From: Planctomycetota bacterium
Lineage (GTDB): Bacteria > Planctomycetota > Planctomycetia > Pirellulales > UBA1268
Reading direction: 5' to 3'
Assembly (NCBI GenBank): GCA_016872555.1
Contig: VGZO01000005.1
Span: 62,001 to 126,000, forward strand
DNA length: 64,000 bases
Shown here piece by piece: positions 9,386-59,175 of this stretch; within the stretch, counting starts at the first letter, position 1, and each line of letters begins with the position of its first letter. Position numbers and translations under genes: made by a program. Under the pieces are notes generated by a model. That model was not told where the DNA came from, did no database searches, and saw nothing but the letters and a program-made list of their open reading frames with translations.

Positions 9386-10174
9386 ATGCTTTTTTCCTGG
9401 CTCAGGTCCCGGCGGCGTCGTGCCCTCGCCACGGTGCCGTTTCCCGCCGAGTGGGAGCGGCTCCTGGTCGCCGGCGTGCGCCAGGTGGCCTGGCTGCCGC
9501 CCGACGACGGCCAACTCCTCCGCGGCATGGTGGCGGTCCTCCTCGCCGAGAAGCGATTCGAGGGGTGCGGCGGGCTCGAAGTCGACGATGAGATCCGGGT
9601 GGTGACCGCCGGGCAGATGGCCCTGACGGCGCTGGGGCTGTCGGTCGATCTGTTCGATCGGCTCGGGTCGGTGCTCCTCTACCCGGGCGACTTCAAGGCC
9701 CCGCGCGCCGAGTCGCTCGGAAGCGGTGTCGACATCGAATGGCGCCAACCGCTCGAAGGGGAGGTCTCGACCACCGGGGCGATGGCCCTCTCCTGGCCAC
9801 GCGTCCGCGCCGGGGGCCGGCTGCGCGACGGCGCCAGGGCGCTGGTGATCCACGAGACGGCGCACCTTCTCGACGGACTCGACGGGGAGATCGACGGCGC
9901 GATCACCGGGGGCGGTGGTCGCTGGGAGGAGCAGTTCGCTGTCTGCCGCGAACACTATGCGGAAGTACTCGACGAGGGGCGTGCGGTGCCGTTCGATGAC
10001 TACGCCACCACCAGCCCCGCGGAGTTCTTCGCCGTCGCCAGCGAATGCTTCTTCCAGGATCCCCATCCACTGTGGCGGTTCGACCACACGCTGTACGACG
10101 TGTTGGCCATGGCGTGGCGCCAGGATCCGCGCCGCCGCGTGCCGGTCAGCGGGGGCGCTCGTCGCGGTGGCTGA
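9386..10174 (+). CDS. mtfA: M90-family zinc peptidase, MtfA-like
   Basis: 262 residues. The metallopeptidase motif HETAHLLDGLDG (HExxH followed by LDG) is that of the M90/MtfA family, as are the GSVLLYPGDF region upstream and the AEFFAVASECFFQDP segment, whose glutamate is the likely third zinc ligand. MtfA of E. coli binds the Mlc repressor and has aminopeptidase activity. Here the substrate is unknown, and no Mlc homologue is seen in the window. The first residues (LFSWLRSRRRR) are typical of the family N-terminus, which supports the ATG at 9386. It is convergent with the propeller protein gene. Confidence 0.9.
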   Translation: MLFSWLRSRRRRALATVPFPAEWERLLVAGVRQVAWLPPDDGQLLRGMVAVLLAEKRFEGCGGLEVDDEIRVVTAGQMALTALGLSVDLFDRLGSVLLYPGDFKAPRAESLGSGVDIEWRQPLEGEVSTTGAMALSWPRVRAGGRLRDGARALVIHETAHLLDGLDGEIDGAITGGGGRWEEQFAVCREHYAEVLDEGRAVPFDDYATTSPAEFFAVASECFFQDPHPLWRFDHTLYDVLAMAWRQDPRRRVPVSGGARRGG

Positions 10175-50126: not shown

Positions 50127-52133
50127 TCAGGTCGTCGGGCCGGCGCTTGCCGCCGGTGCAGAGCCGGCAGCCGGCAGGGCGGGCGGGGTGGCGCCGCGCA
50201 CGGGAACCATCGGCTTGATGATCACCGGCCCGGTCCGCTCGGCGCGCCCCGATGCCGCCGGCAAGGGGGCGGGAATCGTCTCGACCGCGATCGTGGCCGG
50301 AACGGGACGGATGGCGCCCTGGCTCGGCGCCGGCGGAGTGACGGTCTTCGGCGCGGTCGCCGCGGGATTGCCGGACGTCGGATCGGGAGTGGTCGCGGGC
50401 TCGACCGGCTTCTCGAACCGGATCGTGCCGGTCGCTTCACTGCCCGTGGCGGCGGCGTCGGTGGGGTCGACGTGCGGCAGCGCCGAACCGGTCCAACCGT
50501 TCTCCACCGGCGGGCTGGCGCCGGTCGACCCGCTGGAAAACGTGCGGGTCGCACTCTCGGCCTCGGCCGCCGACAGCGCCGGAGGCGCCGTGGTCGGCCG
50601 GGCCGCCGCGGCGCTGCCCGTCTCGGCCGGCCGGGGGCTCGCCGGGACGACGGCCGACGTCGACGGTGAGAACGTCGCCGCCGGCACGACCGCCGGGGCC
50701 GACGTGACCGCTGGCACGAGCGGGGCGGCGCTGGCGGTGGGGAGGGGATTGCCGCACGGATCGAGCGGGATCCTCAGGACCACCGTCCGCGGCGTCCGCA
50801 CGGTGTAGGTGTAGGGTGTGCGCTTCTCGACGACGCGCGGCACCTGGACGGTCTTCTGCTCGGCGACGTATTTGAGGACCTGGACGGTCACCGGTTCGAC
50901 CTTCTCCTCGGTGACGAACTTGCAGGACTGGACAGGCACCTGACGGACCTGCTCCTCGGCGACCATCCGGCAGACCTGGATAGGGACCTTGTTCTCGATC
51001 CGCTCGACCACCTTGCGGACGGTCTGGACGGGAACCTGACGAACCTGCTCCTCGGCGACCATCCGCGTGGTCTGGACGGGGACCTGCTGGACGACCTGCT
51101 CGTCGACGTAGCGCATCGTCTGGACGGGAACCTGCTGGACGACCTGCTCGTCGACGTAGCGCATCGTCTGGACGGGGACCTGCTGGACGACCTGCTCGTC
51201 GACGTAGCGCATCGTCTGGACGGGAACCTTGCGGTTGACCACGCGGTTGACGACCGTCGTCTCCGGAACCTGGACCGCGACCATGTTGGGCTGGTAGACG
51301 CGGTTGACCTGGTTGACGACCACGCCGGGCGTCATCGTCCAGCCGTAGCCGCCGCGCTGCCACGTCGCCAAGCCGTTCCACGGATTCACCGCCCAACCCC
51401 CCGGTACCCACGAGAGCTGCGTCGTGCCGGGGGCGACCATCGGCGTCACCTGGTCGACGTAGCCGCCCTGGTCGGCGTAGGCGGTGCGCATCGTCGTCAT
51501 CGGCTCGGCGACCGTGTAGGCCTCCTCGCGCTCGGCGGTCTCGTAGACCGGCTTGCGGACGACACTCACCTGCTGCTGCATGACGGTCTCGGCGACCGGC
51601 TTGCGGACGATGCTGACCTGCTGCTGCATGACGGTCTCGGCGACCGGCTTGCGGACGACGCTGACCTGCTGCTGCATCACGGTCTCGGTGACCGGCTTCA
51701 TGACGGTGAAGCGTTCCTCGCGCGTGCTCGTCTCGACGACGTCGCGCACCTGGTCGTAGCTCCGGTCCTGCACGACCGTCTCCCAGACCGGCTTCATCAC
51801 CGTGTAGCGTTCCTCGCGCGTGCTGGTCTCCCAGACGGGGCGTTGGACGGTGTAGCGCCGCTGGGTGGTCTGCGTCTCCCAGACCGGACGGCTGACTGTG
51901 TAGCTGCGGGTGTCGTAGACGGTTTCGTAGCTGACCAGCGACGCGCTCACCTGGCGCTCGTCGTAGACGGTCTGGTACTGCAGCCGGTAGGTCTGGGTGA
52001 CGACCGGGGCCGTGGCGACCTCGCCACAGCACTGCCCCCGGGCGATCACCAGCGGGCTGGCCGCGACCTGGGCGGCGCACACGACGGCGATCAGCTGGCG
52101 GCTGAAGATCGACTTGGACCGCGCACGAAGCAT
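50127..52133 (-). CDS. YTV-repeat exported surface protein
   Basis: 668 residues. A signal peptide ([19 protein letters not shown]) is followed by short repeats typical of the planctomycete YTV family: [48 protein letters not shown], three copies of a [15 protein letters not shown]-like unit, then three copies of [16 protein letters not shown] and further variants. A Gly/Trp-rich segment ([20 protein letters not shown]) lies in between. The C-terminal 200 residues are Pro/Ala/Thr-rich and disordered-looking. YTV proteins are thought to be cell-wall proteins of Planctomycetes. A strong GGAGGAG precedes the ATG at 52133. Confidence 0.9.
51084..51227. repeat. Three tandem 48-base repeats inside the YTV gene
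   Basis: Units begin at 51084, 51132 and 51180, each starting CTGCTGGACGACCTGC, and encode the 16-residue [16 protein letters not shown] unit. They are nearly identical at the DNA level, with a single G/A change seen between units, which points to recent duplication or gene conversion. Confidence 0.9.
51570..51713. repeat. Second set of tandem 48-base repeats inside the YTV gene
   Basis: Three units starting at 51570, 51618 and 51666 (CTGCTGCTGCATxACGGTCT) encode the 16-residue [16 protein letters not shown]-like unit. They are highly similar to each other; the last one diverges at its 3' side as read on the plus strand. Confidence 0.88.
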
Positions 52134-52394: not shown

Positions 52395-52862
52395 TCAGAG
52401 GTTCTTCTCGAACAGCCGACGGCTGGCGGCGTCGAGTGCCGCCAGCGAGGGGATCCGGTAGCGGACACCGTGGGTGTCGGTGATCACGGCGCTGCCGTCG
52501 CCTGGCCGGCTGACATCGTCGCTGCCGGCGACACGGAAGCGGCGCGGCCCGCGGTCGGTGACGACCGACCATTCGGCCGGCTCGGCGTCGTTGACGGCGT
52601 CGATCCGGGCGATGAGCGGAAGGAATTCGCGGGCCGCCAATTCGGCGCGGAGATCGGCCGCACGTTCGTCGCCGAGGGCGGCGAGCGACTCGATCCAGGC
52701 CAATTCGCTGCCGTCGGCAGCGACGATCGCCACCAGCCCGTCGGGGTGCGACAGCGGGAAGGCGCGGACGACGTCGACGTCTTCGTGGCGCTGTCCAGAG
52801 GCGGCGAGGAAGTCGACGCGGCCGTGGGGGAGACGCTCGAGGCGCCAGCCGGGGTCGGGCAT
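52395..52862 (-). CDS. DUF1854 protein
   Basis: 155 residues. The match to DUF1854 rests on VVRAFPLSHPDGLVAIVAAD, ELAWIESLAALGDERAADLR, LAAREFLPLIARIDAVNDAE and the end YRIPSLAALDAASRRLFEKN. In proteobacteria such proteins occur beside an ABC transporter in cyanophycin-related loci, which is also the layout here: the ABC transporter ends 42 bases before this start, in the same direction, and a cyanophycin synthetase is transcribed divergently. The biochemical role of DUF1854 is not known. No signal peptide or membrane segment is seen, so it is likely cytoplasmic. Confidence 0.85.
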   Translation of the reverse strand: MPDPGWRLERLPHGRVDFLAASGQRHEDVDVVRAFPLSHPDGLVAIVAADGSELAWIESLAALGDERAADLRAELAAREFLPLIARIDAVNDAEPAEWSVVTDRGPRRFRVAGSDDVSRPGDGSAVITDTHGVRYRIPSLAALDAASRRLFEKNL

Positions 52863-52903: not shown

Positions 52904-55228
52904 TCAGGCGGCCGCCTCGGCTTCCTTCGTCTGGGCGTGGTACAGCCGGGCGTACGTCCCGGCCCGGGCGAGGAGGTCCTCGTGCGTGCCGATCTCGACG
53001 ATCCGCCCCGCCTCGAGCACGACGAGCCGGTCGGCGCGGCGGAGGGTCGACAGGCGGTGGGCGATGGCGATCGTCGTCCGTCCGGTGACGAGCCGGTCGA
53101 CGGCCGCCTGGATCACGCGCTCGGTCTCGGCATCGACCGCCGACGTGGCCTCGTCGAGGATCAGGATCCGCGGGTCGACGAGCAACGCCCGGGCGATCGA
53201 CAGCCGCTGCCGTTCGCCGCCAGACAGCGAGCTGCCGCGCTCTCCCACCCGGGAGTCGTAGCCGGCCGGAAGCCGGAGGATGAAGTCGTGGGCGCCGGCG
53301 GCGCGGGCGGCGGCGACGATCCGCTCGGGCGTGGCGTCTGGGCAGCCGTAGGCGATGTTCTCGGCCACCGTGCCGAAAAACAGGAACGGCTCCTGGAGCA
53401 CGCAGCCGAGGTTGCGGCGGTAGTCGCCGATCGCCAGCCGGCGGAGGTCGACGTCGTCGATGCGGATCGATCCGCTCGACGGATCGTGGAACCGGCAGAC
53501 GAGGTTGGCGAGCGTCGTCTTTCCCGAGCCGCTCGCGCCGACCAGGCCGATCATCTCCCCCGGCTCGATGACCAGGTCGATGCCGTGGAGGACCTCGCGG
53601 GCCCCGTAGCGGAAGTGCACGCCGTCGATCGCGATCCGGCCGCGGATCCGCCCGACCGGCACCGGCCGCGGATCCTCGGCGACCGTCGGCTGGCAATCGA
53701 GGATCTCGAAGATCCGCGCGGCGCTCGACGCGGCGCGCTGCGTCGCCGGCACCATCCGGATCATGCTCTCGACGCGGCCGTAGAACCGGGCGATGTAGCC
53801 GACGAACGTCGTCAGCATCCCCACGGTGACCGATCCGGAGAACACCAGCCACGCGCCGGCCGCCCAGACCACCAGCAACCCCGTCTCGCTGAACAGGCTG
53901 ACCAGCGGCCCGCAGAAGCTCCACACCACGTTGACCCGGTCGTTGGCCTCCAGCACGCGGTCGTTGGCGTCGCGGAAGCGCTGCATCTCGCGCGGCTCCT
54001 GGGCGAACGCCTTGACCACCCGGATCCCGGGGATCGCGTCGGCCAGGACGCTGGTCATGTCGGCCCAGGCGACGTTGGCCCGCGAGAAACCACGCCGCAG
54101 CCGCTCGCGGACCGCGTACACCAGCCACAGGACCAGCGGGAACGGGGCCAGCGTCACCAGTGCCAGCCCGGGGGCGATCCACAGCACGGCCGCCGCCGTG
54201 AGCAGCACGATCGTCACGTCGGAGGAGAAGTCGATGAGGTTCACCGAGAGGAAGTTGCAGATCCGGTCGGTGTCGTTGCCGACGCGCGACATCAGGTCGC
54301 CGGTGCGGCGGGCGGCGAAGAAGTCGAGCGACAGCGACTGCATGTGGGAATAGGTCCGGACGCGGAGGTCGGCGGCGACCCGCTCGCTCATCCAGGCCAG
54401 TGTCCACGACTGCGCCCACGCCAGCAGCCAGGCGACGACCGCGGCGATCGCCAGGCCGCCGAGGTACCACCACACCTGGGCGAACGGCACGTCGCGCCCC
54501 GCCTGCCGCGGGATGAGGACGTCGTCGACCAGCGGCATCGTCAGGTAACCGGGAACCAGCGTGGCGGCGCTGGCGGCCAGCGACAACAGCGCCCCGAGGA
54601 GGGCGACGCCGGCGTGGGGACGCATGAACCACGCCAGGCGCACGAGGTTGGTCAGCGAGACGTCGCCGCTCGGCGGGGCGAGGTCGTCGTCGCCGTGGCG
54701 CGACGGGGGCGGGGCGGTGTCGTCGTCGTCGGCACCCGAAGCGTCGGCGTCACCGCGCGCCGCATCGTCGGCCGCGGCGGCGACGGGAGACGCGTCGGCG
54801 GGGCGGTCGCGGTGCGCCCCACGGCGGCTCCGCTCGTCGAAGGCGTCTTCGAGGGCGTGGAGACCGGCCGCCCGGGCCGGCGTGAACAGCCAGCGGGCGA
54901 CGATCGTTCCCCGGCGCGACAGTTCCACCCGGCCGACCGCGCCGCGGATCCGGATTTCCAGCTGGCAGTCATCGTCGAGCGGCCAGGAGGTCAGGCCGCC
55001 GGGGGTGGTCCTCACCACGGCGGACGGGTCGGCCGACGCCGGCCGGTCGGCGAGCAGGCGCTGCCCGGTGAACACCAGCCAGCCGTCGGTGAAGCGCAGC
55101 TCGGCGTCGAGATCGAATCGCGCCGCGGCGATCACCGTTTCCCCCGGCTCGAGCCCGAGGACGGCGGCATCGGGGAGGGTGGGCGGCAGGGGGGGGACGG
55201 GGGTGGCGGACGAAGCGGTGGGCGGCAT
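52904..55228 (-). CDS. ABC exporter with fused ATPase (DUF1854-associated)
   Basis: 774 residues. An N-terminal extension of about 130 residues with small beta strands (TVIAAARFDLDAELRFTDGW, LTSWPLDDDCQLEIRIRGAV), reminiscent of a PH-like fold, and an acidic linker precede six membrane helices of the type-1 exporter fold. The ATPase domain has Walker A GASGSGKTT, the signature LSGGERQR, Walker B ILILDEATSAVD and the H-loop IAHRLS. It resembles ABC transporters placed beside DUF1854 proteins in cyanophycin loci. The exported molecule is unknown. The ATG at 55228 lacks a good ribosome-binding site; an upstream TTG is possible. It is transcribed together with DUF1854 and divergently from the cyanophycin synthetase. 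Confidence 0.9.
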   Translation of the reverse strand: MPPTASSATPVPPLPPTLPDAAVLGLEPGETVIAAARFDLDAELRFTDGWLVFTGQRLLADRPASADPSAVVRTTPGGLTSWPLDDDCQLEIRIRGAVGRVELSRRGTIVARWLFTPARAAGLHALEDAFDERSRRGAHRDRPADASPVAAAADDAARGDADASGADDDDTAPPPSRHGDDDLAPPSGDVSLTNLVRLAWFMRPHAGVALLGALLSLAASAATLVPGYLTMPLVDDVLIPRQAGRDVPFAQVWWYLGGLAIAAVVAWLLAWAQSWTLAWMSERVAADLRVRTYSHMQSLSLDFFAARRTGDLMSRVGNDTDRICNFLSVNLIDFSSDVTIVLLTAAAVLWIAPGLALVTLAPFPLVLWLVYAVRERLRRGFSRANVAWADMTSVLADAIPGIRVVKAFAQEPREMQRFRDANDRVLEANDRVNVVWSFCGPLVSLFSETGLLVVWAAGAWLVFSGSVTVGMLTTFVGYIARFYGRVESMIRMVPATQRAASSAARIFEILDCQPTVAEDPRPVPVGRIRGRIAIDGVHFRYGAREVLHGIDLVIEPGEMIGLVGASGSGKTTLANLVCRFHDPSSGSIRIDDVDLRRLAIGDYRRNLGCVLQEPFLFFGTVAENIAYGCPDATPERIVAAARAAGAHDFILRLPAGYDSRVGERGSSLSGGERQRLSIARALLVDPRILILDEATSAVDAETERVIQAAVDRLVTGRTTIAIAHRLSTLRRADRLVVLEAGRIVEIGTHEDLLARAGTYARLYHAQTKEAEAAA

Positions 55229-56028
55229 GGTGACGGAGGGAAGGGAGCGGCACGGGGGCCGCAAGAACCGGCAGGGCGTTTGTCGAGTATCCCAGCGTGC
55301 CGGAATCCGCCAACCGGATGCCGGCCGGGAGGGACCCGGGAGAGGGTGATCGCGGTGTTTCCACCGGAAAAACCGGTGCAGTCGGCAGGTGACGCTGCAC
55401 GCCTCCGGGGGGTGGGGGGTTCGATCGGCGCCGATTGCCGGGGCCGGTCATTCGCTTTCGCCGTGGCGAGTCGTAAAATCTCCACCGCGTCGGGTGCGTC
55501 GCGGCAAAACTGCGGTGCGTTCGACGGGTCGGCAGGGCGGAAAGCGATCCTTTTCGCGCGGTCGGCCGTTCGATTCATGGTGCCGGTGGAACGTGGCATC
55601 GCGAGCGAACGCACGTCCGCGCGGCGTGCGGCGGTGCCGGACGGTCCCCCGGTTCAGGACATCGATCGACCCATGGCCCTCACGGCCGGTTCGTTGGTCT
55701 TCGGTTCCCGGATCCATCATCGCCCGACTGCCAGGCGCGTCTGCGGCAGGGGTGTCTCTCCCGCGGCCCGGGATTGTTGGCCGCCATGATCAGGGTGCCT
55801 GTCGGCCGCGGTGGCCTTCCGCGGAGGACGGGCAACCAATCCCCCCGGCCATTTTCCTGACGGCCCCGGCCGTCCGTCCGCGGTGGCGACGCGCCGCCGC
55901 GGTCGGCACCCCAGCGTGCAGGTCCCCAACCCAGGCCTGCCGGAGCGTCCGGCGGCCAGAGGACCGGCACACCCCACCAGCCCGCGCACGCGTCGGCGTC
56001 GGGCCCCGAGGCGACCACCGAACCGACC
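55229..56028. other. 800-base intergenic region between ABC exporter and cyanophycin synthetase
   Basis: Divergent gap, long for this window. I see no convincing gene: the open frames in it are short, lack ribosome-binding sites and resemble no family. It contains a short hairpin at 55362-55378. A TAAAAT hexamer at 55474-55479 lies 17 bases after a weak TTCGCT on the plus strand, which could start transcription toward the synthetase with a 540-base leader. It is a likely place for shared regulation. Confidence 0.55.
55362..55378. repeat. Small A-loop hairpin
   Basis: CACCGG and CCGGTG form a perfect six-base stem around a five-base AAAAA loop. It lies in the divergent gap between the ABC exporter and the cyanophycin synthetase. 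It has no T run after it and may be an operator half-site pair rather than a terminator. Confidence 0.4.
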
Positions 56029-59000
56029 ATGGAGATCACGAAGATCAAGGTGTTGCGGGGCCCCAACGAGTGGGCCGCGTTTCCGGTCCTCGAGGTGTGG
56101 GTCGACCTCGGCCACCTCGAGGATTTCCCGTCGCACGTCATCCCCGGCTTCAACGACAAGCTGAAGCGCTGGCTGCCGGGGATGATCGAGCACCGCTGCA
56201 ACATCGGCGAGCGCGGTGGGTTCTTCCAGCGGCTCGACACCGGCACCTGGATGGGACACGTGCTCGAGCACGTGACGCTCGAACTCCAGACCGCCGCGGG
56301 CACGGCGGTGGGCTACGGCCGTGCCCGTGAGCTCGACCAGCGCGGTTGCTACCGGGTGGTCATCGAGTACGTCGAGGAGAAGTTCGCGCTGGAGTGCCTG
56401 CAGACGGCGCACCGCCTGATCATGACGGCGATCGACGGTGGGGAGTTTCCCATCGCCGCGGAGCTCAAGCGGCTGCGCGGCCTGCTCCTCGAGGTCCAGC
56501 TCGGTCCGAGCACGCGCTCGATCGTCGATGCGGCGCTGGCCCGGGGGATCCCCTGCCGGCGGCTCAACGAAGGAAGCCTCGTGCGGCTCGGTCAGGGGGC
56601 GAAGCAGCGGCGGATCATCGCCGCCGAGACCGACCGCACCCCGGCGGTCGCCGAGTCGATCGCCCAGGACAAGGACCTCACCCGGGCGCTGTTGGCCGAG
56701 GCGGGGATCCCGGTTCCCGAGGGCCGGCCGGTGACCGATGGCGCCGAGGCCCAGGCGGTGGCGGCGGAGTTCGGCGGTCCCGTGGTCGTCAAGCCGCGCT
56801 ACGGCAACCAGGGGCGCGGGGTGTCGGTCAATCTCACCACGCCCGACGAGGTCGCCCGGGCGTGGGAATTCGCCCGCACGCACGGCGACGATGTCGTCGT
56901 CGAGCGCTTCATCCCCGGCGGTGATCACCGGCTCCTCGTCGTCGGCGGCAAGGTCGTCGCGGCCGCGCGCCGTCACCCGCCGACCGTCACCGGCGACGGG
57001 GTCAGCTCGATCGAGCAGCTCGTCGCCAAGGCCAACGAGGATCCGCGGCGCAGTGGCGACCATGCCACCTCCCTGAGCCCGATCGTCATCGACGCGGTCG
57101 CCATCGCCGTGCTCGCCGAGCCGGGGATGACGCCGGCCTCCGTTCCCGAGGCAGGGCGGACGGTGTTGCTGCGGCACAGCGCCAACCTCAGCACCGGCGG
57201 CACCGCCGAAGACGTCACCGACAGGGTCCATCCCGAGGTCGCGGCCCGGGCGGTCGAGGCCGCCCGCGTGGTGGGCCTCGACATCGCGGGGATCGACGTC
57301 GTCACCGCCGACATCGGCAGGCCGCTCGACGGCCGGAGCGGCGCCGTGATCGAGGTCAACGCCGGCCCCGGCCTGCGGATGCACCTCGAGCCGACGATCG
57401 GCACGCCGCGGAACGTCGGGGCGGCGATCGTCGACACGCTGTTCGGACCCGGTGACGACGGCCGGATCCCGGTGGCTGCGGTCACCGGCACCAACGGCAA
57501 GACGACCGTCGTCCGCCTGATCTCCCACCTCGCCGCCGCCGGCGGGGCCACGGTCGGCACCACCTGCACCGAAGGGGTGTGGATCGGCGACCGGATGATC
57601 GACTCCGGGGATTGCAGCGGGCCGCAGAGCGCGCGGCGTGTGCTCGCCAATCCGACGGTCACCGCCGCCGTCCTCGAGACGGCGCGGGGCGGCATCCTTC
57701 GCGAGGGCTGTGGGTTCGACCGCTGCGACGTCGCCGTCGTCACCAACATCGGCCGTGGCGACCATCTCGGCATCGGCGCCGTCGACACCCCCGAGAAGCT
57801 CGCCTGGGTGAAGGGGGCGATCGTCTGCGCCGTGAAGCGCGACACCGGCGCCGCCGTGCTCAACGCCGCCGACCCGCTCGTGGTCGGGATGCGGCAGTGG
57901 TGCAAGGGGCAGGTCGTGTACTTCTCCGCCGACCCGTCCGCGCCGGTGCTCGTCGAGCACCTCGCCGCGGGAGGCCTGGCCGCCACGGTGCGCGACGGCT
58001 GGATCGTGCTCTGTGACGGCCCCCGCGAGACGCGGCTGGCACACCTCGACCGCGTGCCGCTGGTGCACCGCGGGCTGGTACGGTTCCAGGTCGACAACGT
58101 CCTCGCCGCCGCGGCCGCCGCCTGGCGTCTCGGCGTGCCGCTGGAGATCGTCCGCCTCGGGCTGGAGACCTTTCCGGCGGGGATGGCCGGATCGCCGGGG
58201 CGATTCAACGTCGTTGAACTGGCCGGTGCGACTGTCGTCGTCGACTACGGCCACAACCGCGACTCGCTGGAGCTGATGATCGCGACGCTCCGCCCGCTGC
58301 CGCACCGCAAGCGGACGGCCGTCTACTCCGCCGCCGGCGACCGTCGCGACGAGGATATCGTCGAGCAGGGCAAGCTCATCGCCGCCGCCTTCGACCGGGT
58401 TGTCGTCTACGAGGATGCCTACATGCGTGGCCGGGCGCCGGGGGAGATCACACGCCTGATCGCGTCCGGTGTCGCCGCGGTCAGACCCGACGCCGAGAGC
58501 TTCGTCGTCGCCGGTGGAAGTTGGATCGAATCGGCTTCCGGCGTGCTCGACAACGTGACCGCCGGGGAGCTCGTCCTCCTCCAGGCCGACACGATCGACC
58601 AGGCGGTGACGTGGCTCGAGAGCCGCTACGGGACGCGGATCACCGGCACCTCGCTCGACCGGCTCATCGGCCTTCCCGAGGGGGAGCCCGCGGCGGCGAG
58701 CCACGGCCCGGTGACCGTGCACGTCGGCCTCGGTGGCCGCGGATTGCGGGCCTCGCGTGGGATCGCCGCCGGCGAGACGATCCTCCGGGCCTGGGGACCG
58801 CAGGTTCCCGCCCGTGGCCCCGACACGATCCAGGTCGACGTCGGCACGCACGTCCGCCCCGAGGGGCCGCTGGTGCTGTGCAACCACTCGTGCGAGCCGA
58901 ACTGCGGATTGCTCATCCGCACCGGGGTCCGCGAGATCGAGATGCGGGCGCTGCGGGCGATCGCCGCCGGCGAGGAGCTGTCGATCGATTACGAGACGTT

Positions 59001-59175
59001 CGAGTACGTCATCGAGCATCAGGGGGCGACGTGCCGCTGCGGGGCGCCCGCCTGCCGCGGCCGGCTCCCCGGCTACAAGCTGCTTCCCGCGGAGATCCGC
59101 GCCCGCTACGGCGAGTTCATCGCCGAGTACCTGCGTGTCCTCGAGCCCGACGTGTCGGCGCCGGTCGTGAAATGA
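56029..59175 (+). CDS. cphA: Cyanophycin synthetase fused to a C-terminal SET domain
   Basis: 1048 residues. Residues of about 1-880 are a complete CphA: start KIKVLRGPNEWAAFP, an ATP-grasp domain with VVKPRYGNQGRGVSV, LRHSANLSTGGTAEDVT and DVVTADIG, then a Mur-ligase-like domain with P-loop TGTNGKTT at residues 486-493 and the CphA hallmark AAGDRRDEDI. CphA makes the Asp-Arg polymer cyanophycin without ribosomes. From residue 895 a SET domain follows: GGRGLRASRGIAAGETILRA, NHSCEPNC at 952-959, ELSIDYETFEY with Tyr988, and a post-SET CRCGAPAC (Cys1002, 1004, 1009). SET domains methylate lysines. Plain CphA proteins are about 870-900 residues, so the SET part is an added module. No clear ribosome-binding site is seen, but the start matches the family N-terminus. 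Confidence 0.9.
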   Translation: MEITKIKVLRGPNEWAAFPVLEVWVDLGHLEDFPSHVIPGFNDKLKRWLPGMIEHRCNIGERGGFFQRLDTGTWMGHVLEHVTLELQTAAGTAVGYGRARELDQRGCYRVVIEYVEEKFALECLQTAHRLIMTAIDGGEFPIAAELKRLRGLLLEVQLGPSTRSIVDAALARGIPCRRLNEGSLVRLGQGAKQRRIIAAETDRTPAVAESIAQDKDLTRALLAEAGIPVPEGRPVTDGAEAQAVAAEFGGPVVVKPRYGNQGRGVSVNLTTPDEVARAWEFARTHGDDVVVERFIPGGDHRLLVVGGKVVAAARRHPPTVTGDGVSSIEQLVAKANEDPRRSGDHATSLSPIVIDAVAIAVLAEPGMTPASVPEAGRTVLLRHSANLSTGGTAEDVTDRVHPEVAARAVEAARVVGLDIAGIDVVTADIGRPLDGRSGAVIEVNAGPGLRMHLEPTIGTPRNVGAAIVDTLFGPGDDGRIPVAAVTGTNGKTTVVRLISHLAAAGGATVGTTCTEGVWIGDRMIDSGDCSGPQSARRVLANPTVTAAVLETARGGILREGCGFDRCDVAVVTNIGRGDHLGIGAVDTPEKLAWVKGAIVCAVKRDTGAAVLNAADPLVVGMRQWCKGQVVYFSADPSAPVLVEHLAAGGLAATVRDGWIVLCDGPRETRLAHLDRVPLVHRGLVRFQVDNVLAAAAAAWRLGVPLEIVRLGLETFPAGMAGSPGRFNVVELAGATVVVDYGHNRDSLELMIATLRPLPHRKRTAVYSAAGDRRDEDIVEQGKLIAAAFDRVVVYEDAYMRGRAPGEITRLIASGVAAVRPDAESFVVAGGSWIESASGVLDNVTAGELVLLQADTIDQAVTWLESRYGTRITGTSLDRLIGLPEGEPAAASHGPVTVHVGLGGRGLRASRGIAAGETILRAWGPQVPARGPDTIQVDVGTHVRPEGPLVLCNHSCEPNCGLLIRTGVREIEMRALRAIAAGEELSIDYETFEYVIEHQGATCRCGAPACRGRLPGYKLLPAEIRARYGEFIAEYLRVLEPDVSAPVVK
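58711..59133 (+). other. SET domain coding segment of the CphA fusion
   Basis: Region of the fusion gene coding residues 895-1035. The catalytic pocket pieces are intact: the N-terminal GxGxR-like segment GLGGRGLRAS, the NHSCEPN motif, the IDYETFEY motif and the post-SET cysteines. The cysteine of NHSC plus the three post-SET cysteines can form the zinc site known from histone lysine methyltransferases. The frame runs from the CphA part into this segment without a stop. Confidence 0.85.

Follow-up and report, generated by a model that had tools for sequence, protein, structure and literature searches.

The window, i.e., the whole stretch of 64,000 nucleotides of planctomycete DNA analyzed here, contains at positions 56029–59175 (+) a single open reading frame that starts with an ATG at 56029, ends with a stop codon at 59173–59175 and comprises 1048 codons with no internal stop. 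Its 1048-aa product is a cyanophycin synthetase (CphA) joined to a C-terminal SET domain, an architecture common to at least 28 loci. A promoter scan upstream of this CphA-SET gene found nothing. Divergently oriented from it lie the genes for a cyanophycin metabolism-associated ABC transporter (52904–55264, −), which scores 994 bits against NF052233 (cutoff, 880), and for a DUF1854-family partner of that transporter (52395–52862, −), whose NF052234 score of 146 bits is just below the cutoff of 150. This ABC/DUF1854 arrangement beside CphA is syntenic in relatives with or without SET. Farther on, at 50127–52133 (−), is a gene for a repeat-rich protein built from a 16-residue and a 15-residue unit; a similar protein adjoins the corresponding locus in L028.

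Residues 1–866 match TIGR02068 with 1043.4 bits (cutoff, 850) and PRK14016 with 1160.7 bits (cutoff, 877), align end to end with CphA1s of solved structure, and score above the cutoffs of the Pfam models for the Cyanophycin_syn N-domain, RimK ATP-grasp, Mur_ligase_M and Mur_ligase_C. The N domain (residues 1–160; 56029–56508, +; PF18921, 127 bits) contains a Cx19HxxEH motif (C57...H77VLEH81; 56197–56271, +), overlooked in an earlier note on this DNA, that is intact in all 27 aligned CphAs and predicted to cleave primers; such an N-domain site is the primer-making endo-cyanophycinase (PMC9262961). The ATP-grasp G domain (residues 161–470; 56509–57438, +; PF08443 above cutoff) is predicted to add Asp to the backbone, and the Mur-ligase type M domain (residues 471–866; 57439–58626, +; PF08245 and PF02875 above cutoff), with its P-loop TGTNGKTT at residues 486–493 (57484–57507, +), is predicted to attach the side-chain amino acid. 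In an alignment mapped by hand, the ATP-site residues of TeCphA1 named in PMC9427784 have counterparts in both domains: K255, R301 and R315 of the G domain correspond to K261, R309 and R323, while K491, T514, E550, F686, R725 and H742 of the M domain correspond to K499, T522, E558, F692, R731 and H748. The full-length match, the three domains, the N-domain site and these residues place the protein among the CphA1 cyanophycin synthetases. One stretch of the M-domain lid differs: where CphA1s with known structures have EDDD or RDDD, the window protein and its relatives have YEDAY. Because of this difference, which could suggest a side-chain amino acid other than that of the solved enzymes, Arg should not be assumed as the side chain. 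We take the stretch to be the counterpart of the DNPR motif of MurE, with which it was aligned.

The SET and post-SET domain occupies residues 894–1030 (58708–59118, +). PF00856 matches residues 903–988 with 45.1 bits (cutoff, 22.4), and the domain contains NHSCEPNC at residues 952–959 (58882–58905, +), the catalytic-type DY at residues 987–988, IDYETF, and a zinc-type post-SET CxC....C at residues 1002–1009 (59032–59055, +). Among 61 SETs, Q51, H69, S70, C71, N74, C75, D103, Y104, C118, C120, C125 and R126 (SET numbering) are invariant; catalytic, SAM-binding and zinc-type positions are all represented in this set. An AF2 model of the SET segment (pLDDT 87.2; pTM 0.83) adopts the SET fold, so that the Pfam match, HSCxPN, DY, the post-SET cysteines and the fold are all those of the SET methyltransferase superfamily; the family models test sequence, and the SET and CphA assignments made with them are accordingly at sequence level. 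The earlier note had described an uninterrupted 1048-codon frame holding a complete CphA and, from residue 895, a SET domain, with the motifs TGTNGKTT, GDRRDEDI, NHSCEPN, IDYETF and a post-SET cysteine set. The frame and every one of these motifs are present, TIGR02068 and PF00856 both score above cutoff, and homology to the relatives starts at about residue 894. Between the two parts runs a variable linker (residues 867–893; 58627–58707, +): only 4 of 29 columns at residues 867–895 are invariant, and residues 884–892 have AF2 pLDDT values below 50. Because this linker is modeled with low confidence, the full-length AF2 model (pLDDT 84.6; pTM 0.73) does not fix the placement of SET relative to the M site.

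The fusion recurs widely. Full-length fusions were found in 20 of 36 genomes of the same family (that of the window included), and CphA is cut by a contig end in 2, lacks SET in 5 and is absent from 9. With the SET as query, a CphA-type SET (E < 1e-40) was identified in 29 of 72 family genomes, whose remaining SETs are distant standalone proteins. A further SET gene in the window's own genome (G000:C43, in L001) stands alone and belongs to a different subtype; standalone SETs similar to it are found in most genomes of the family. A wider scan with two short patterns over 84,980 species, one genome per species, in which all counts are lower bounds, returned at least 80 loci. At least 28 of these have SET in frame behind CphA (at least 26 with most of CphA and 2 cut by the contig start); the fusion loci listed are all from Planctomycetota and include the cultured Zavarzinella formosa DSM 19928. 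L096, from an Isosphaeraceae MAG, has CphA immediately followed on the same strand by SET as a gene of its own, with a gap of ~120 bp if SET starts at the Met at 9998. The SET locus L095 lies at a contig edge, and among the matches listed L094 and 49 others are standalone SETs with no CphA recognized nearby. A Crocosphaera MAG has a SET gene ~1 kb downstream of CphA (L153:5146–5418, −), which was considered as kin of the fusion and rejected; it is a standalone SET of a different type and probably unrelated.

That two genes were joined by assembly or annotation, for instance through a frameshift at residues 880–895, is virtually ruled out: the source of the window is a draft genome of 162 contigs, but the identical in-frame join, with identical synteny, is found across many independent assemblies, a cultured isolate among them. 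As the earlier note had supposed, no description of a CphA-SET fusion was found in the open-access literature.

The CphA-SET fusion is conserved and under purifying selection. The mean pairwise identity is 64% for SET and 76–79% for CphA, and dN/dS of SET in close pairs is 0.03–0.12 in 8 of 9 cases, comparable to that of CphA; the remaining pair, with very few changes, gives 0.30. In the CphA tree, which forces three changes in SET presence, SET-less family members nest inside the fused group, for which SET loss is the simplest reading. The three changes are read as one gain and two losses in the family, plus SET-less outgroups. A strict single clade of fused SETs is neither shown nor refuted by the branching of the SET tree. 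Only 1 of 493 conserved CphA columns changes with SET loss, and no interface signal was found among these columns. That CphA barely changed in step with two or more losses of SET indicates that the polymerase does not depend on it.

A second CphA is found near the CphA-SET gene in L088, L089 and L092. The G domain of the fused protein has lost its ATP-grasp loop region in L088 and L089 and is missing in large part in L092 (where the sequence is partly masked), but the M-domain P-loop, the N-domain motif and SET are kept in all three; in L089, the partner CphA has kept its G loop and lost its M-domain P-loop. Given a degenerate G domain and an intact M domain in the fused CphAs of these three loci, SET appears to travel with, and may be tied to, the side-chain ligase half of CphA. 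The window's genome also encodes a second, diverged CphA elsewhere (39% identity; L066:6501–8435, −; G000:C17), which is a possible partner of CphA-SET.

Of 28 family genomes, 25 have an ABC transporter that exceeds the NF052233 cutoff, while the cyanophycinase TIGR02069 is present in only 3 of these 28. The latter was not found in the window's genome (a draft, ~98% complete) or in the draft assemblies of 24 of 27 relatives, which sets the window apart from the classical cyanophycin storage system and removes the ground for the suggestion in the earlier note that methylation confers resistance to cyanophycinase. With ABC/DUF1854 linked to CphA, even if NF052234 falls slightly under its cutoff, and with cyanophycinase rare, the window enzyme is judged from these family matches to come from a CphA locus of another type than the one linked to cyanophycinase; the product of the window's locus type appears to be undescribed in the open-access literature. 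Among 399 sampled genomes of Pseudomonadota, 28 have a CphA over cutoff, accompanied by the ABC transporter in 20 of the 28; CphA occurs in two places in 19 of the 20 ABC-positive genomes and in none of the 8 ABC-negative ones. The M-lid reads YQD[AQ]xQRGR or similar in the ABC-positive Pseudomonadota and has DD in half of the ABC-negative CphAs; we dropped the claim that this motif tracks ABC association, because the remaining ABC-negative enzymes deviate too, and treat it as suggestive only. In three family members (L147:8310–9746 of G026, L149:7682–9118 of G030 and, similarly, L148 of G010), an ATP-grasp_3 protein adjoins the ABC transporter of the ABC/DUF1854 pair and no CphA was found, as if the transporter module had swapped its peptide ligase.

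By both sequence and fold, the nearest solved SET is BurB (E 2.6e-9 and 32% identity for the best PDB match of the SET model), a free-methionine S-methyltransferase (PMC12542666). MLL1, NSD2 and ASH1L follow in the fold search, and MLL1, ASH1L, NSD and SETD2 are close behind BurB in sequence and fold. Of the ligand residues of BurB, H93 and Y124 are conserved in CphA-SET and R42, S88, R133 and H138 are not, so that the SET could not be filed as a BurB-type methionine S-methyltransferase; H72 of BurB is kept in most fused SETs and is Asp in the window. The window SET has the KMT-type Asn of NHSC that BurB lacks, and this Asn is missing from the SET of L010. With free methionine as the substrate of the nearest characterized SET, protein lysine is no more plausible a substrate here than a small molecule or a polymer, and the protein-lysine chemistry assumed in the earlier note needs revising.

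We propose a four-site enzyme of the DUF1854/ABC-associated CphA system, in which the N, G and M domains would build and trim a poly-Asp chain with amide-linked side-chain amino acids, and SET, which continues from the C-terminal end of the M-domain lid, would use SAM to methylate either an amino-acid substrate or the polymer, the latter at a side-chain amine or the chain end; the ABC transporter would then handle the product. The activity of SET, the nature of its substrate and the role of the transporter in handling the product are all inferred. We put the likelihood that SET methylates what the M domain handles, be it amino acid or polymer, at not far short of even. This reading is favored by CphA and SET signatures above curated cutoffs, invariant SET residues and low dN/dS, by the recurrence of the fusion in at least 28 loci, with the two genes separate but side by side in L096, and by the retention of SET together with an intact M domain in the G-degenerate CphAs of L088, L089 and L092. 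The kind of substrate is favored by the amino-acid chemistry of BurB and by the plasmid SET relatives that sit among amino-acid or small-molecule genes. In Eleftheria, the relative lies in a bur-like cluster with SET, dioxygenase, aminotransferase and aldehyde dehydrogenase genes, and in Tabrizicola piscis (L200:1124–6128) it stands in a row with genes for a GHMP kinase, a PLP-dependent enzyme, a DMT transporter and an alanine racemase, possibly an uncharacterized amino-acid pathway. Against it count the BurB ligand side chains R42, S88, R133 and H138 that are not conserved and the two or more losses of SET within the family that left CphA nearly unchanged. The more specific proposal, in which an Asp-based polymer or oligopeptide is methylated, may carry a non-arginine side chain and may be moved by the ABC transporter, is rather unlikely; the M-lid YEDAY in place of EDDD/RDDD is compatible with an altered side chain, with the proviso that ABC-less CphAs vary in this motif too. 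The polymer methylation suggested in the earlier note survives in that the fusion is real and conserved and a polymer or amino acid is still the leading hypothesis for the substrate; its cyanophycinase-resistance part is not supported, and its assumption of protein-lysine chemistry needs changing.

The strongest rival is that SET methylates protein lysines (its own, or those of the second CphA, the ABC transporter or the DUF1854 protein) as a regulatory switch for polymer synthesis. SET enzymes are mostly protein-lysine methyltransferases, the matches to MLL1, ASH1L, NSD and SETD2 are close, and the NHSCEPNC motif, with its KMT-type Asn, and the post-SET cysteines are canonical, so that such chemistry retains some likelihood; BurB is nevertheless the nearest solved relative, an obvious protein substrate is absent, and CphA in particular, even when G-degenerate, is what SET is fused to or sits beside, which leaves this role unlikely, if worth serious consideration. 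Another candidate product, a methylated amino acid (S-methylmethionine, for instance) that stays free instead of entering the polymer, has precedents in BurB (PMC12542666) and in the bur-like plasmid cluster, but appears improbable given the unconserved SAM/substrate residues of BurB and the finding that no bur-like genes were recognized at the CphA-SET loci examined. Equally improbable is a non-catalytic appendage, e.g., a polymer-binding or oligomerization module: two SET losses without visible change in CphA and the missing Asn in L010 would fit it, but the catalytic-type Tyr and all zinc-type cysteines are invariant in 61 sequences and dN/dS is low.

Until now, cyanophycin-like material has been altered only by chemical means, by added enzymes or through the choice of substrates (PMC8560796). 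Should SET methylate the polymer, as proposed, it would provide a natural, built-in covalent modification of such material, and the range of the SET family would extend from protein and free methionine to a non-ribosomal polymer; a methylated Asp-based product would make this the first SET domain to modify a non-ribosomal amino-acid polymer. The planctomycetes with CphA-SET may make a methylated polymer, or methylate something handled alongside it. CphA-SET also highlights the DUF1854/ABC type of CphA locus and offers, in the cultured host Zavarzinella formosa and a candidate chemical mark, two handles on it.

Among the known systems, CphA1 (PDB 7WAC and 7LG5; TIGR02068) shares the N, G and M domains over residues 1–866 and the three active-site motifs; the window protein differs by its extra C-terminal SET, by a Gln that replaces the His of GNHGRG, by the M-lid and by a genome in which cyanophycinase was not detected. 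The DUF1854/CphA-associated ABC loci of Pseudomonadota, with their tandem CphAs, resemble the window in combining an ABC transporter with CphA, and L088, L089 and L092 in having a second CphA, but no SET was found in the 1.5-kb flanks of 30 CphA loci of Pseudomonadota. BurB (PDB 9L4T and 9L4V), the best SET match, has HSCxPN, DY and the post-SET cysteines in common with the window SET, which in contrast to it lacks several of the ligand residues, has the canonical Asn before HSC and is fused to CphA. Finally, the eukaryotic SET lysine methyltransferases MLL1, ASH1L, NSD and SETD2 share NHSCEPNC, DY, the post-SET zinc cysteines and the fold, but their similarity is lower than that of BurB, and the window SET falls in a bacterial class with C-terminal helices of its own.
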